Position numbers and translations under genes: made by a program | Assembly (NCBI RefSeq): GCF_002754935.1 | Contig: NZ_CP018092.1 | Coordinates: 1,364,001-1,428,000 of the forward strand | DNA length: 64,000 nt | Direction of reading: 5' to 3' | Source of the DNA: Thermostichus lividus PCC 6715 | GTDB lineage: Bacteria; Cyanobacteriota; Cyanobacteriia; Thermosynechococcales; Thermosynechococcaceae | Notes under the pieces: model-generated | Database searches by the model: none | Told to the model about the DNA's origin: nothing | The model's input: the letters and a program-made list of their open reading frames with translations, nothing else | In this document: one piece after another, positions 3,082 through 45,913 of the stretch | How positions within the stretch are numbered: the stretch's first letter is position 1 | Layout: every line of letters starts with the position of its first letter

Positions 3082-4098
3082 TTACATCAGCCGCGAGACC
3101 AAGTCTTGGCGATCAATCCCCTTGCCAATCACCACCAATCGCGTGTGCCGGGATTCGTGGGGCTGCCACAGGCGATCGTAGAACACCTCCAACCGCTGAC
3201 CCACCCCCTGCACCACCAGTCGCATCGGCTTCCCCTCAATTGCCGCAAAGCCCTTGATGCGGTAGATGTCGGGTTCCTTTAACAGGCGCTCAAGGGACTG
3301 GCGTAAACCATTGAGGTCGCAACATCCCATCTCTAGGCAAACCGCCGCAATCTCCTCATCATGATCATGCTCCGCCTCACCATCGTGGTGGCTAGGTCGC
3401 TGCCCTAAATCCTCCTCAACCGCTGCATTAAACCCAAGAAGTAACTCTGTAGGCACCTGCCCGTGGCTAGCCGCAATGACCTTAATGCGCGAGGGCAGTT
3501 GGGCTTGCAGGCTCTCAACAAGGTGCTGAGGTTGACCTGCCGCCAGTTGATCGGTCTTGGTCAGGATCACTAAATCCGCACAGGCCAGCTGATCGCTAAA
3601 GAGTTCTTCGAGAGGCGTGTCATCGTGCTGCAGACTCTCATCTGCGGCCTTTTGGGCAAACAGTGCCTCCACATCGGCACTCACTTGTCCAGCGGCGAAG
3701 GCGAGTCCATCCACCACCGTCACCACGCCATCTACCGTGGCAGCATGGCGTACCTCTGGCCAACGAAACGCCATCACCAAGGGTTTGGGTAATGCCAAAC
3801 CGGAGGTTTCAATGACAATGTGGTCAATTTGCTGCCGCCGTTGCAGCAACGCCTGCATCGTTGGCAGAAACTCATCCTGTACCGTGCAGCACAGACAGCC
3901 GTTAGTCAGCTCCCAGATCCCAGCCGTTTCAGTACAGCACGACTCTAGCAGGTCGCCATCAATCCCCACATCCCCAAACTCATTGACAATCACCGCAATC
4001 CGTCTGCCCTGGGCATGGCTGAGCAGATGACGAATCAGAGTGGTTTTGCCGCTACCTAAAAAGCCAGTAATGATCGTTACAGGAATCTTTGCCGCCAT
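3082..4098 (-). CDS. CobW/COG0523 family GTP-dependent metallochaperone
   Basis: P-loop GTPase of the G3E class that delivers metal (zinc, cobalt or other) to target proteins. The 338-aa protein has the Walker A motif GFLGSGKT at about residues 12-19, the metal-binding GCLCC at about 67-71, an NKTDQ-type specificity motif (LTKTDQL), and a His/Asp-rich loop (HHDGEAEHDHDEE) near residues 238-250 that could hold metal. The CobW C-terminal domain follows. Its ATG overlaps the glcD stop by one base (TAATG), implying translational coupling. The cognate metal and client are unknown; cobalt for B12 is not implied by context. Confidence 0.88.
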   Translation of the reverse strand: MAAKIPVTIITGFLGSGKTTLIRHLLSHAQGRRIAVIVNEFGDVGIDGDLLESCCTETAGIWELTNGCLCCTVQDEFLPTMQALLQRRQQIDHIVIETSGLALPKPLVMAFRWPEVRHAATVDGVVTVVDGLAFAAGQVSADVEALFAQKAADESLQHDDTPLEELFSDQLACADLVILTKTDQLAAGQPQHLVESLQAQLPSRIKVIAASHGQVPTELLLGFNAAVEEDLGQRPSHHDGEAEHDHDEEIAAVCLEMGCCDLNGLRQSLERLLKEPDIYRIKGFAAIEGKPMRLVVQGVGQRLEVFYDRLWQPHESRHTRLVVIGKGIDRQDLVSRLM

Positions 4099-42244: not shown

Positions 42245-42591
42245 TGGCAGCGGCAACTGGTCGAGTTGTTCTGAATCACTCTACCCATATTGAGGGGCTG
42301 ATTCCCGTCCTAGAAAAGTTGGCCAAGGTAGCGGGCATTACCACCCTCACTCCGGGGGTGATTGCCCCGGTCAAAGGCAAGTCTCCCCACCTGCACCTGC
42401 GAGTGTCAGTGCCCATTAAGGGAGGCTTCAAGGTCATTGCACGCCGTGGCAAAACGGTGCAAGAGGTCTTTGTTGTTACCCACCTGAGCGAGGCGGAACT
42501 AAAAGGCGCGATCGCCACTGTTTTAACGACATGTAGCAAGAAGTCCCCGATGCTACAGCAGGCGAATCGTGGGATGAATTGCGACCAATAA
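42244..42591 (+). CDS. DUF2103 family protein, C-terminus possibly altered by an IS
   Basis: A 115-aa protein from the ATG at 42244, which overlaps the preceding stop (TAATG). The core (VVLNHSTHIEGLIPVLEKLA, ITPGVI-type strand, GKSPHLHLRVSVPIKGGFK) matches DUF2103, a small cyanobacterial and archaeal family suggested to bind metal. From CSKKSPMLQQ onward the sequence merges with the start of the adjacent TnpB pseudogene, so the last 15-20 residues may derive from an insertion. Confidence 0.75.
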   Translation: MAAATGRVVLNHSTHIEGLIPVLEKLAKVAGITTLTPGVIAPVKGKSPHLHLRVSVPIKGGFKVIARRGKTVQEVFVVTHLSEAELKGAIATVLTTCSKKSPMLQQANRGMNCDQ

Positions 42592-43583
42592 CAACAACCA
42601 ACGAACAGAGATTAGCCCTAGCCAAAAGCTTTGGCTGCTGTCGCTGGTACTGGAATTATTCGCTCAACTTGTGCCAAGAAACCTACCAATCAACTGGGAA
42701 AGGGTTATCACGCTCAGCTATTCAGGGAGTACTCCCTAGCCTAAAGAAGCAGCACCCTTGGCTGAAGGAAGCTTACTCGCAGTGCTTGCAAGTTGTGGCT
42801 CTAAATTTATCCACGGCTTACAAGAACTTTTTTGAGGGAAGAGCGAAGCTACCAAGATTCAAATCCAAAAAAGGTCGTCAATCGATGACCTACCCTCAAA
42901 ACGTCAAAGTAGAAGGGGATGACGTTAAACTCCCTGGAAACGTTGGGACGTTGTACTGCTGTCAACATCGAGAGTTTGAGGGAAAAATCAAATCGGCTAC
43001 GGTTTCGCTCAATCCAGATGGGAAGTACTATGTGTCCCTCCTCGTTGAGGATGGCCGAGAGCAACCTCCTCCTAGTCCTGAGGGGAAAGCAATAGGCATA
43101 GATTTAGGGCTGACTCACTTCGCAATTACGAGTGACGGCTCAAAGTTTGATCATCCTCGACACTTAGCCAAACATGCTCGTAACCTAAAGCGCAAATAGA
43201 AGAAGCTTTCTCGCAAAAAGCAGGGAAGCAACAATCGCGATAAAGCTCGACAGCGAGTCGCTCGCGTTCACAGTAAAATAGCTCGCTGTCGTGAAGATTT
43301 TCTACACAAGCTATCCCGCAAGATAGTCAACGACAACCAAGTGATTGCTGTAGAGAATCTTTATGTGAAGGGGATGGTGCGAAATCCCAACCTCGCTAAA
43401 GCGATTAGTGACGGTGGTTGGGGGATGTTTTGCACCATGCTCAAGTACAATGAAGCCTTGCGGATATTGGAGTTAGGAACTCGCTCTACTGCCTTTGGGA
43501 GGGAACGTAAGTCATCTGGTAAAACGTCGGTTTTGTTAGATGCTGTCCCCGTTGAACAAGGAAGCCGCTTATCTAGCCCGTAG
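42579..43583 (+). pseudogene. tnpB: Decayed TnpB (IS200/IS605 family, second copy)
   Basis: Reads as TnpB in one frame: EQRLALAKSFGCCRWYWNYSL, helical region, and RuvC-I GIDLGLTHFAITSDG. An in-frame TAG at 43197-43199 follows NLKRK, where family members have Gln. Reading continues KKLSRKKQGSNN and RuvC-II VENLYVKGMVRNPNLAKAI. After LKYNE the gene jumps to the tail LGTRSTAFGRERKSSG, so the zinc finger and RuvC-III aspartate are deleted. The 5' end also lacks the normal initiator. No TnpA accompanies it. Confidence 0.85.
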
Positions 43584-43600: not shown

Positions 43601-44134
43601 TCACCTTAACTCACGGTAAGCTTGGAGAGCCGCTTGTTTAGTGTCTTCGGGCACTAGGGGAAAAGTGCTGAGAATATGGACAAATTCGGTTTCGGTGAGA
43701 CCATACAAATGGGCAATGATGCCATCCAGTTCCGCCCGCAATTTTGCCCGTTCAGCTTCGTCGGTAACGCCACGCCCCTCGTTAGCCCTCACCCTACATT
43801 CCTCTCCCAAAGAGGGAGAGAGTGGATGGTCTTGTCCCCCTTCTCCAGCTCCAGAACGGGAGAGGGGAGCAAGAGTACTGTCCGGTTCCCCTTCTCCCCC
43901 CTTGAGAGAAGGGGTTAGGGGATGAGGGAAAACCGCCGCCCACAAATCCTCAAACTCCGGCGTAGTGCAAATCAGCTTCGCCGCCCGCTCCACAATTTCA
44001 GCAAACCATTTATCCCCTTCTTGAAGCCGAGGAACAGGCATTGAGTAAACATAAAACATATTGCAATGAGCTGTTACTTTCTGACGAATCATAAAGTCAA
44101 ATAAAAAACTATTTAAGATAGAAGCTGCTACCAA
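43601..44134 (-). pseudogene. C-terminal fragment of a large DNA methyltransferase/restriction enzyme with in-frame repeat insertion
   Basis: A 177-aa stub. ASILNSFLFDFMIRQKVTAHC and FYVYSMPVPRL are typical of the target-recognition end of type IIG/Eco57I-like methyltransferases, proteins normally above 900 aa. No SAM-binding or catalytic NPPY part remains; a TGA stop lies 12 codons before the first usable start. Between WAAVFP and the final helix (DEAERAKLRAELDGIIAHL) the reading passes through a palindromic repeat, adding about 50 low-complexity residues without breaking frame. It is surely inactive as an enzyme. Confidence 0.7.
43786..43928. repeat. Palindromic repeat, family member 1 (143 bp)
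   Basis: Bounded by CCCTCACCCTA and, inverted, TTAGGGGATGAGGG. Inside are further hairpins, e.g. CTCTCCC/GGGAGAG and CCTTCTCCCC/GAGAAGGGG. The same outer ends and an inner CTTCTCC hairpin recur at 46676-46758. It lies inside the methyltransferase fragment. Confidence 0.75.
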
Positions 44135-44189: not shown

Positions 44190-44636
44190 TTAAGCAGGGG
44201 TCAAATCAGTGGGAAAGTTAGGGTCAAAGAGTTGTTCGGGTGTATAGGGACAACTTTGGGGTAAATCCTCATAGTCTAAAGGGGTTTCACCCACAACTAA
44301 ATCCTTACCAGATTCATAAGCATCGGCAATTATCTCTGTCAGATAGGGTTTGAGGCTAGGGTTTTGACCGATTAGTTTTTGTGCTGCTCGCCGTTGCTCG
44401 CGAATTGTGGCTCGCCAACTTTTACTACGCTGTTCCGGTTGGTAGTGCCACTTCAACAGGTGCCCAATTAAAATTCCTAAGCGACTTTCCAGTTCTCGAC
44501 GTTCCTGCTTTCCCAATGACTCAATTTCCTCCACCAAATTTGGGATGTCCAGATGCTTGAAATCGCCTTCCTTAAGCAACTTTGACTGCTCCAGTGTCCA
44601 GGCATAGAAATCCGTTTCGTAGAGATTGGATGGCAT
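44190..44636 (-). CDS. DUF29 family protein (copy 3 of 3)
   Basis: A 148-aa all-helical protein of the DUF29 family, abundant in cyanobacteria and of unknown function. Conserved marks are YETDFYAWTLEQSKLL, DIPNLVEEIESLGKQE, LIGHLLKWHYQPE and SWRATIREQR. The first 44 residues equal those of the neighbouring copy at 44653-45102, while the rest diverges. It is the last of three consecutive DUF29 genes on this strand. Confidence 0.88.
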   Translation of the reverse strand: MPSNLYETDFYAWTLEQSKLLKEGDFKHLDIPNLVEEIESLGKQERRELESRLGILIGHLLKWHYQPEQRSKSWRATIREQRRAAQKLIGQNPSLKPYLTEIIADAYESGKDLVVGETPLDYEDLPQSCPYTPEQLFDPNFPTDLTPA

Positions 44637-44652
44637 ATATTCAAGTCCTAAC

Positions 44653-45102
44653 TCAGATCATTGAATTCAAATCAGCGGGAAAATTTGGATCGAACAGTTG
44701 CTCGCATGTATAAGGACAAGTCTTCGGCAAATCCTCATAATCCAAGGGAGTCTCTAGCCGTACTAGATCGACTCCAGCTTTATATCCCTTAGCGATCGCC
44801 TCTAACAAATAGGGCTTGAGGCTAGGGTTTTCGTCCAACAGATCTTCGATTTCACGACGTTGGATTTGAATGGTCACGCGCCAGCTTTTGCTGCGCTTGT
44901 CGGGCTGATAATCCCACTTCAAAAGATGCCCAATTAAAACACCGAGTCGGTTTCTCAGTTCCTGACGCTGTTGCTTCCCCAATGACTCAATTTCCTCCAC
45001 CAAATTTGGGATGTCCAGATGCTTAAAATCGCCTTCCTTAAGCAACTTTGACTGCTCCAGTGTCCAGGCGTAAAAATCAGTTTCATAGAGATTGGATGGC
45101 AT
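44653..45102 (-). CDS. DUF29 family protein (copy 2 of 3)
   Basis: A 149-aa DUF29 protein starting at the ATG at 45100-45102; a 12-residue upstream extension overlaps copy 1 and is rejected. Its ribosome-binding GAGGAG lies over the end of copy 1, so the two are probably co-translated. It shares the exact N-terminal 44 residues with copy 3 and shows DKRSKSWRVTIQIQRREIED and the tail TCEQLFDPNFPADL. Confidence 0.88.
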   Translation of the reverse strand: MPSNLYETDFYAWTLEQSKLLKEGDFKHLDIPNLVEEIESLGKQQRQELRNRLGVLIGHLLKWDYQPDKRSKSWRVTIQIQRREIEDLLDENPSLKPYLLEAIAKGYKAGVDLVRLETPLDYEDLPKTCPYTCEQLFDPNFPADLNSMI

Positions 45103-45103
45103 A

Positions 45104-45571
45104 CTAATTCTCCTCAGTGGATTGCAGCCAAAAGTCATTATTCAATAATTGCTCGATGGCGCGATCGTAACTCCATGCATCCGGAAAAGAGACTTGAGGA
45201 TATTCCTTCCGTACATTTTTAAGCGCAATTTGCCAAGCCTTATCAAAACTGAGTTCCCATCGATTGCTTAAGCTCGGTGCGGTATCTAATAAAACTTCTA
45301 GTTCCGAACGCTGAGTCCGAATTGTTCGCTCCCATCCATTGTAGTCACCGGGCAAGTTCACATATAACCGTTTTAATAAATGTTCTAGTAAAACAATTAA
45401 ACGACTAATCAATTCCTTTTTCTGAGAGATCCCCAATGCCTCTACCTCTTCGATCAAATGCTCAATATCCAGATGGTCAAAGTCCCGTGCTTTCAGCTTG
45501 GCAACCGTATCTTCTGACCACAACAAAATATCTTGGTCATAGAGGGAGCTTAGATTTGGGGTTTGAGACAT
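45104..45571 (-). CDS. DUF29 family protein (copy 1 of 3)
   Basis: A 155-aa DUF29 protein, the first of the three in transcription order, preceded by a clear AAGGAG. It is the most divergent copy (YDQDILLWSEDTVAKLKARD, LDIEHLIEEVEALGISQKKE, WERTIRTQRSELE). Its stop lies 1 bp before the next ATG. Function unknown. Confidence 0.86.
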   Translation of the reverse strand: MSQTPNLSSLYDQDILLWSEDTVAKLKARDFDHLDIEHLIEEVEALGISQKKELISRLIVLLEHLLKRLYVNLPGDYNGWERTIRTQRSELEVLLDTAPSLSNRWELSFDKAWQIALKNVRKEYPQVSFPDAWSYDRAIEQLLNNDFWLQSTEEN

Positions 45572-45674
45572 TAGAGAATCTCCTTAACGATCTATGGCGG
45601 TTGTCTATTCGGTTAGGACAAATTTTGGCTTCTACACTGCGGCAGTTCTCCCTCACATCGGGTAGGGCTGGAAG

Positions 45675-45694
45675 CCCCGTACTTCAGTGCGGGG
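45675..45694. repeat. IS200/IS605-type hairpin (solo end A)
   Basis: Seven-base stem CCCCGTA/TGCGGGG (one wobble) with a CTTCAG loop, followed by AGGAAAGC. This form is typical of the subterminal hairpin at the right end of IS200/IS605 elements in cyanobacteria. No neighbouring tnpA or tnpB remains. Confidence 0.6.
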
Positions 45695-45850
45695 AGGAAA
45701 GCTCCTTTAGCAACTTCAGTTGTTTTAGGTTATAATTGTACTGCGGACACCAGAAACGGTTGTTCAAGGCACTGGTAACGGTCGATTGGGGGTGTTGTAA
45801 ACCACCCCAGGGGCTCGCGGTTGGCTTGCTAACTGCAGGGCTACTAAAAG

Positions 45851-45870
45851 CTCCCTGCTTTAGCTGGGAG
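45851..45870. repeat. IS200/IS605-type hairpin (solo end B)
   Basis: CTCCC pairs with GGGAG, and after a T-T mismatch GC pairs with GC around TTTA. Preceded by AAAAG and followed by TAGTTTAC. With end A it may bound a short non-autonomous element of about 200 bp. Confidence 0.5.
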
Positions 45871-45913
45871 TAGTTTACAACTATCATTCATTGTCAATAG
45901 CGGCTGTCGCATG

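Follow-up and report, generated by a model that had tools for sequence, protein, structure and literature searches.

Among the described systems that most resemble the locus analyzed here are the Type-2 BREX-related (BR) loci, in which an HKD/PLD nuclease and Snf2 helicase are combined with an N6-methylase and in which RNase modules (HEPN, PIN) are located inside the operon (PMC12839542). According to the available portion of that report, Type-2 BR systems combine the helicase and methylase with DUF3780 and a core ATPase, DUF3780 is present in 98% of Type-2 BR loci, and HEPN and PIN RNases are backup effectors inside these related helicase-methylase loci (PMC12839542). The DUF29 family is widespread in cyanobacteria, and we found no earlier clue to its function; in a literature search, neither DUF29 as a word nor PF01724 was found, and the word-start matches that were checked were to other DUF numbers. 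Here, one DUF29 subfamily is assigned to the slot of a defense operon that also accommodates toxin-antitoxin genes, which makes its function directly testable.

The window, i.e., the whole stretch of 64,000 nucleotides that was analyzed, contains three intact, full-length tandem DUF29 genes on the minus strand, based on ORF calls and Pfam searches. The first gene of the array, c0 (45104 to 45571; 155 aa; PF01724 E 7e-38), is of a divergent type and is followed after 1 nt by c1 (44653 to 45102; 149 aa; E 4e-52), which has a middle part of type A, and c1 is followed after 16 nt by c2 (44190 to 44636; 148 aa; E 1e-52), which has a middle part of type B. All three proteins match DUF29 with 130 to 178 bits (cut-off 22.5) over positions 1 to 137 or 138 of 138. 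The host genome (G000; 2.66 Mb, one contig) has five DUF29 genes, i.e., the three of the array and a pair near 2.618 Mb. DUF29 is predicted to be a four-helix protein, and an AlphaFold model of c1 has a pLDDT of 90.7. The best fold match of this model, and the only convincing one, is the solved DUF29 structure 3FCN from Rhodospirillum rubrum (TM 0.58), a distant member of the family, while matches to translin/C3PO were weak. The HEPN RNase fold, with its R-x4-6-H motif in the last helix, was not recovered, there being no HEPN structure among the PDB matches listed; H59, which together with D9, W13, D30, and E37 is invariant over 52 divergent DUF29 sequences, lies in predicted helix 2. W74, K62, and R82 are present in at least 94% of these sequences.

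The initial annotation placed the array beside a former defense gene and IS ends, and both are real. A minus-strand ORF (43601 to 44134; 177 aa, including an in-frame insert of low complexity) is the C-terminal remnant of a IIG-type methylase; it is 65% identical to the C terminus of a 1,577-aa methylase that is encoded downstream of c0-c1 in the congener G010 and about 50% identical to DNA methyltransferases of Synechocystis plasmids. Beside this truncated gene lies a decayed IS605-type tnpB (OrfB) on the plus strand (42579 to 43583; Pfam HTH_OrfB_IS605 and OrfB_IS605) with an in-frame stop at ~43199. Upstream of c0, in the position of the helicase gene in relatives, lies a repeat element of ~227 bp (45653 to 45879; no strand assigned), which is one of 28 genomic copies that are 176 bp or longer and 94 to 100% identical. 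This repeat resembles a nonautonomous element. The N-terminal part of the methylase subfamily was not found in the host genome, the only relative being a 30% identical one at 2013773, and the helicase had no match there. In G003, the helicase and methylase genes are both broken while the DUF29 ORF is open, and in the host genome, G004, and G001 (the sister of G004), the DUF29 ORFs are likewise open, the genes for helicase and methylase being missing or disrupted. DUF29 is itself a broken gene in several congeners and is, therefore, not indispensable. We are confident that the array is the remnant of a helicase-methylase defense operon in which the helicase gene and all but the end of the methylase gene were lost and DUF29 was kept intact. 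The link to defense is stronger than originally claimed because this DUF29 subfamily resides in the defense operon itself.

The complete arrangement is seen in relatives. In G010, the orthologues of c0 (G010a) and c1 adjoin each other between a Snf2 helicase gene, which has frame breaks, and the gene for the 1,577-aa methylase; this protein matches the type IIG profile REase_MTase_IIG PDLC03628 with 7e-156, and the window holds only a C-terminal remnant of such a methylase. The order helicase-DUF29-methylase recurs in Microcystis, Hydrococcus, Leptolyngbyaceae, and other cyanobacteria (L064, L100, L101, L102, L103, L108, L229, L231, L232, L233, and L236); elsewhere, DUF29 is found beside the helicase or the methylase alone, at contig ends or after gene loss. 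In the helicase, a PLD domain at the N terminus is combined with Snf2 domains, while the methylase has an Eco57I domain (4e-28 for L100). The C terminus of the helicase was matched in 51 of 390 cyanobacterial genomes. Across 30 loci, of which a few with more distant helicases have no adjoining methylase, the slot is empty (L199, L201, and L210) or holds VapBC (L202/L234, L213, and Synechocystis plasmids), VapB with DUF4258 (L214), MNT-HEPN (L221), XisH-like genes, or one to three DUF29 genes. A single DUF29 gene is present in L200, L208, L211, and L212, and the c0 type also occupies the slot in L098, L104, L230, L231, and L236. Sometimes further toxin-antitoxin genes stand beside DUF29, as do DUF433/DUF5615 in L064. 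DUF29 was in the slot in 11 of 15 cases when the helicase identity was 80% or higher but in none of the 15 cases with a more distant helicase; because the DUF29-carrying helicases are 81 to 98% identical to the query, the operon spread recently and these loci are not independent.

Several further features were observed at these loci. A 209-aa protein without a Pfam match is encoded between helicase and DUF29 in L229 (4375 to 5004), L230 (reversed; 3241 to 3870), and L232 (4300 to 4929); on visual inspection, this protein shows a PD-(D/E)XK-like motif (VDYLLA...IIEAKKD). The G010 methylase (L064, 9588 to 14321) reads through in-frame GEG-rich repeats that, by eye, enclose a DUF559-type endonuclease-like segment; similar repeats are also present in the helicases and in the methylase remnant of the window. 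A Leptolyngbyaceae contig (L098, 1 to 1319) has three DUF29 genes (c1 type, c0, and c1 type) before the methylase.

What may DUF29 do in this position? The slot between helicase and methylase could be a cargo site for toxin-antitoxin-like modules, of which DUF29 would be one. Because DUF29 shares the slot with RNase toxin-antitoxin pairs, persists after loss of the operon, and is present on very small plasmids, we suggest that it may have a maintenance or backup role, coming into play once the main defense is hit or lost. The single DUF29 genes in the slot argue against a canonical toxin-antitoxin pair of two genes. A toxin-antitoxin-like role as such is a tentative guess from the shared position, and the main arguments against it are that DUF29 is often a solitary gene and that the majority of its copies are located elsewhere. 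Taken as a whole, and including the suggested role, the reading that the array is the surviving cargo of a helicase-methylase defense operon is the best explanation and, in our view, a probable one.

Alternatively, DUF29 could belong to the helicase-methylase system as an integral subunit, involved in, e.g., target reading or complex assembly. Its fixed place between both genes in many cyanobacteria would be consistent with this idea, as would the tight spacing of the DUF29 genes in the operon loci, which are separated by short gaps or overlap by 4 nt. However, closely related operons have no DUF29 (L199, L201, and L210) or have RNase toxin-antitoxin genes instead (L202), the DUF29 ORFs are open after the loss of both partners, and such partners are lacking for most DUF29 genes: none of the 60 DUF29 loci from G012, G016, G018, and G019 matched the helicase or the methylase. 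We, therefore, consider a subunit function unlikely.

Equally unlikely, in our assessment, is that DUF29 genes are passengers, i.e., small mobile genes inserted wherever a site is convenient, with the conversion described below arising neutrally from short homology. DUF29 was found in 51 of the 58 cyanobacterial genomes sampled, with up to 27 dispersed copies per genome and no constant partner; some copies are on plasmids, including one of 5.1 kb beside rep, and homology suffices for conversion. On the other hand, DUF29 is under purifying selection (omega about 0.1), the polar residues D9, D30, E37, and H59 are invariant over the divergent sequences mentioned above, and the operon slot and gene order are conserved in distant genera. 

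Based on Pfam matches of 110 neighbor ORFs and 110 control ORFs (<600 aa) from four genomes, no transposase family was among the families matching at least two members. Uma2 matched seven DUF29-neighbor ORFs and fewer than two controls; this family is very abundant (117 copies in G018 and 38 in G012), and its adjacency to DUF29 in these two genomes is not convincing. The enrichment near mobile DNA suspected initially was, thus, not seen around the DUF29 genes of four other genomes. Phage records had no DUF29 match, and two IMG/VR contigs did. Among the plasmid-borne copies, one (L035, 612 to 1043) lies directly after rep on the 5.1-kb Rahnella plasmid pHW104, which has rep and mobilization genes, and one on Acidiphilium pACMV2 (L036, 3992 to 4435) overlaps a helix-turn-helix gene by 4 nt.

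Returning to the array as surviving cargo of the defense operon, c1 and c2 correspond to the two copies (2 and 3) that were initially described as sharing 44 identical N-terminal residues and almost unchanged DNA over ~130 bp, followed by divergence. This description held. Over codons 1 to 44 (44971 to 45102 in c1 and 44505 to 44636 in c2, both on the minus strand), the proteins are identical and the seven differences among 42 comparable codons are all silent (dN 0, dS 0.33), while beyond them protein identity is about 66 to 70% (66% over codons 45 to 105) and synonymous sites are saturated (dS 2.1 by NG86 over codons 45 to 105; not computable for codons 106 to 150). Synonymous divergence along the genes is, thus, not uniform: 7 of 40 codons differ synonymously in the 5' part vs 37 of 67 in the rest (Fisher p 1e-4). 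The homogenized tract begins at the ATG, upstream of which the two genes differ, and the likelihood breakpoint is at codon 42 (dlnL 21.7). In terms of structure, the tract spans predicted helix 1 and extends into helix 2, so that its boundary lies inside the latter and not at a domain border.

The remainder of the two genes keeps a separate ancestry and is under purifying selection. Over codons 45 to 150, the orthologues of c1 are G004a, G200_c1, and G033_c1, while those of c2 are G004b, L103, L104, G200_c2, and G033_c2. For three orthologue pairs, omega in the middle part was 0 to 0.15, i.e., orthologues show no excess of amino acid change; over codons 45 to 105, omega is about 0.1. The middle types are few, old, and common to distant cyanobacteria; c2, for instance, is 90% identical to the Hydrococcus protein of L103. 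These data bear on the suggestion in the initial annotation that one half may be kept constant while the other varies, as in recognition modules, which was not supported as stated. A rapidly diversifying recognition part, comparable to restriction specificity subunits or pilin cassettes, would agree with a middle that differs between neighbors with shared ends, including the pairs L083 and L066, which share their last codons as well; however, the low omega between orthologues, the old types common to several families, and the lack of any silent cassettes or invertase that we could see make it improbable. The middle may be spared because the types differ in function, such that conversion is selected against, or because the middles are too different to pair.

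Comparison with relatives supports an exchange between neighbors. The congener G004 has a pair orthologous to c1 and c2 (G004a and G004b) in conserved order. Over codons 1 to 44, DNA identity is 95% for c1/c2 and 89% for G004a/G004b but only 71% for c1 and its G004 orthologue, and c1 and c2 differ from their G004 orthologues at 18 to 19 of 32 to 33 silent codons. By contrast, over codons 45 to 105, protein identity is 80% for c1/G004a and 82% for c2/G004b vs 66% for c1/c2. Accordingly, the quartet tree of codons 1 to 44 favored (c1,c2)(G004a,G004b) by 51 lnL (AU p against orthology 3e-10 to about 1e-7), whereas outside of these codons (c1,G004a)(c2,G004b) was favored by 17 lnL (AU p about 0.002 to 0.003). 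The same reversal was observed in AU tests of G004 against G200 and G033, which represent two further genera, while for the G000/G200, G000/G033, and G200/G033 comparisons the short 5' part leaves the AU topology unresolved. Hence, in three comparisons (G000/G004, G004/G200, and G004/G033), the tract groups by genome and the flanks group by orthology, as for interlocus conversion. A second G004 pair, G004c/G004d, is identical at every site of codons 16 to 53 (dS 0), and outside of these codons dS is saturated or far higher. In G001, the counterpart of this pair has a dS of 0.89 over codons 16 to 53, and the orthologues G004c and G001d have a dS of 0.91 inside the tract vs 0.14 outside; this conversion is truly recent. 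We are nearly certain that c1 and c2 are paralogues of old standing and that short-tract recombination between neighbors, i.e., gene conversion, has homogenized their first ~44 codons. Of the "recent gene conversion" proposed in the initial annotation, conversion is, therefore, borne out by the discordance with orthologues in the AU tests and by the recurrence and unlinked control described below, while "recent" applies to the c1/c2 tract in a relative sense only, given its dS of 0.33. In addition, the G200 and G033 loci (L229 and L232) are ~91% identical in DNA up to the start of c1, and identity rises to 99% from about codon 40 of c1 (around 5280) before falling again, mainly at the c2 start, which argues that the 5' end of DUF29 is also a site at which blocks of the locus recombine.

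The same pattern recurs across cyanobacteria. We surveyed 13 tandem DUF29 pairs from 10 genomes, all with middle parts that are at least 50% identical, and used 163 unlinked pairs as a control. The tandem pairs are not all independent in that those of G004 and G001 share ancestry. In every one of the 13, mismatches are fewer on the 5' side of the breakpoint, which lies at codons 38 to 77. The pooled synonymous codon difference was 17% in the 5' part vs 48% in the middle for tandem pairs and 48% vs 58% for unlinked pairs, and a 5' difference below 25% was found for 10 of the 13 tandem but only 6 of the 163 unlinked pairs (Mann-Whitney p 1.5e-6 for tandem vs unlinked, with one value per locus). 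At a matched middle identity of 0.5 to 0.7, 5' protein identity was 0.92 in tandem pairs and about equal to that of the middle in unlinked pairs. Family-wide conservation is no higher over codons 5 to 44 (0.59) than over codons 45 to 65 (0.62). Because unlinked pairs have no excess of 5' identity and family conservation is not higher in the 5' part, the cause is exchange between neighbors and not a family-wide N-terminal constraint, which is ruled out. Altogether, 5' homogenization is recurrent and independent in tandem DUF29 pairs of cyanobacteria, and it depends on linkage. As a further conversion control, tandem Uma2 pairs provided a single usable pair without 5' bias and are, thus, a weak control. 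In some tandem pairs (L083 and L066), the last codons are also shared, leaving a distinct middle between two shared ends; L066 is the second pair of the host genome (G000:C1:2618170-2619343), which has the same 5' homogenization. That selection alone holds the N-terminal half constant in both copies, without any exchange of DNA, is extremely improbable, since the identical protein sequence of c1 and c2 over codons 1 to 44 and the near-identical N termini of c1-type genes in distant cyanobacteria would fit this idea but the homogenized silent sites, the silent differences from the G004 orthologues in the same stretch, the unlinked paralogues without such constancy, and the AU tests refute it.

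If conversion between neighbors is combined with the operon context, a more specific model can be considered. DUF29 proteins may act together through the N-terminal part that they have in common (helix 1 plus the beginning of helix 2, including D9, W13, D30, and E37), while the distinct middle part (H59, K62, W74, and R82) may set the partner or target of each copy. We speculate that the DUF29 proteins are a new class of backup or guard effectors in the toxin-antitoxin slot, often encoded by one gene only, in which neighbors form mixed complexes via a conversion-matched N-terminal module, the middles recognize different partners, and the orphan persists after operon loss; as a complete model, this is doubtful, and more so than the toxin-antitoxin-like role by itself.

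Compared with known systems, the helicase-DUF29-methylase operon resembles the Type-2 BR loci in its PLD-Snf2 helicase, its methylase, and the RNase modules embedded in it. It differs in that DUF3780 was not noticed here and in that the backup effectors presented in the available portion of that report do not include DUF29 (PMC12839542). Class 1 DISARM (DrmD helicase and DrmMI methylase) is similar in that the best PADLOC match of the G010 helicase fragment is DrmD (7e-28) and that the G010 methylase has secondary matches to DrmMI; however, this methylase matches REase_MTase_IIG far better (7e-156), and drmA, drmB, and drmC were not seen among the ORFs, read by eye, of 17 kb around the G010 locus. 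The type II toxin-antitoxin modules of restriction-type operons (VapBC, MNT-HEPN, and DUF433/DUF5615) occupy the same helicase/methylase slot as DUF29, which differs from them in often being a single gene without a recognized toxin fold. Finally, as in concerted evolution by interlocus gene conversion, DUF29 paralogues within a genome are closer to each other than to their orthologues, silent sites included, and mainly so for linked copies. DUF29 differs in that conversion is repeatedly confined to the first third of the gene, sometimes together with the last codons, and leaves an old and distinct middle. The gene thus offers a clear natural example of recurrent, one-sided recombination, in which one part of neighboring genes is matched while the other parts are kept apart.
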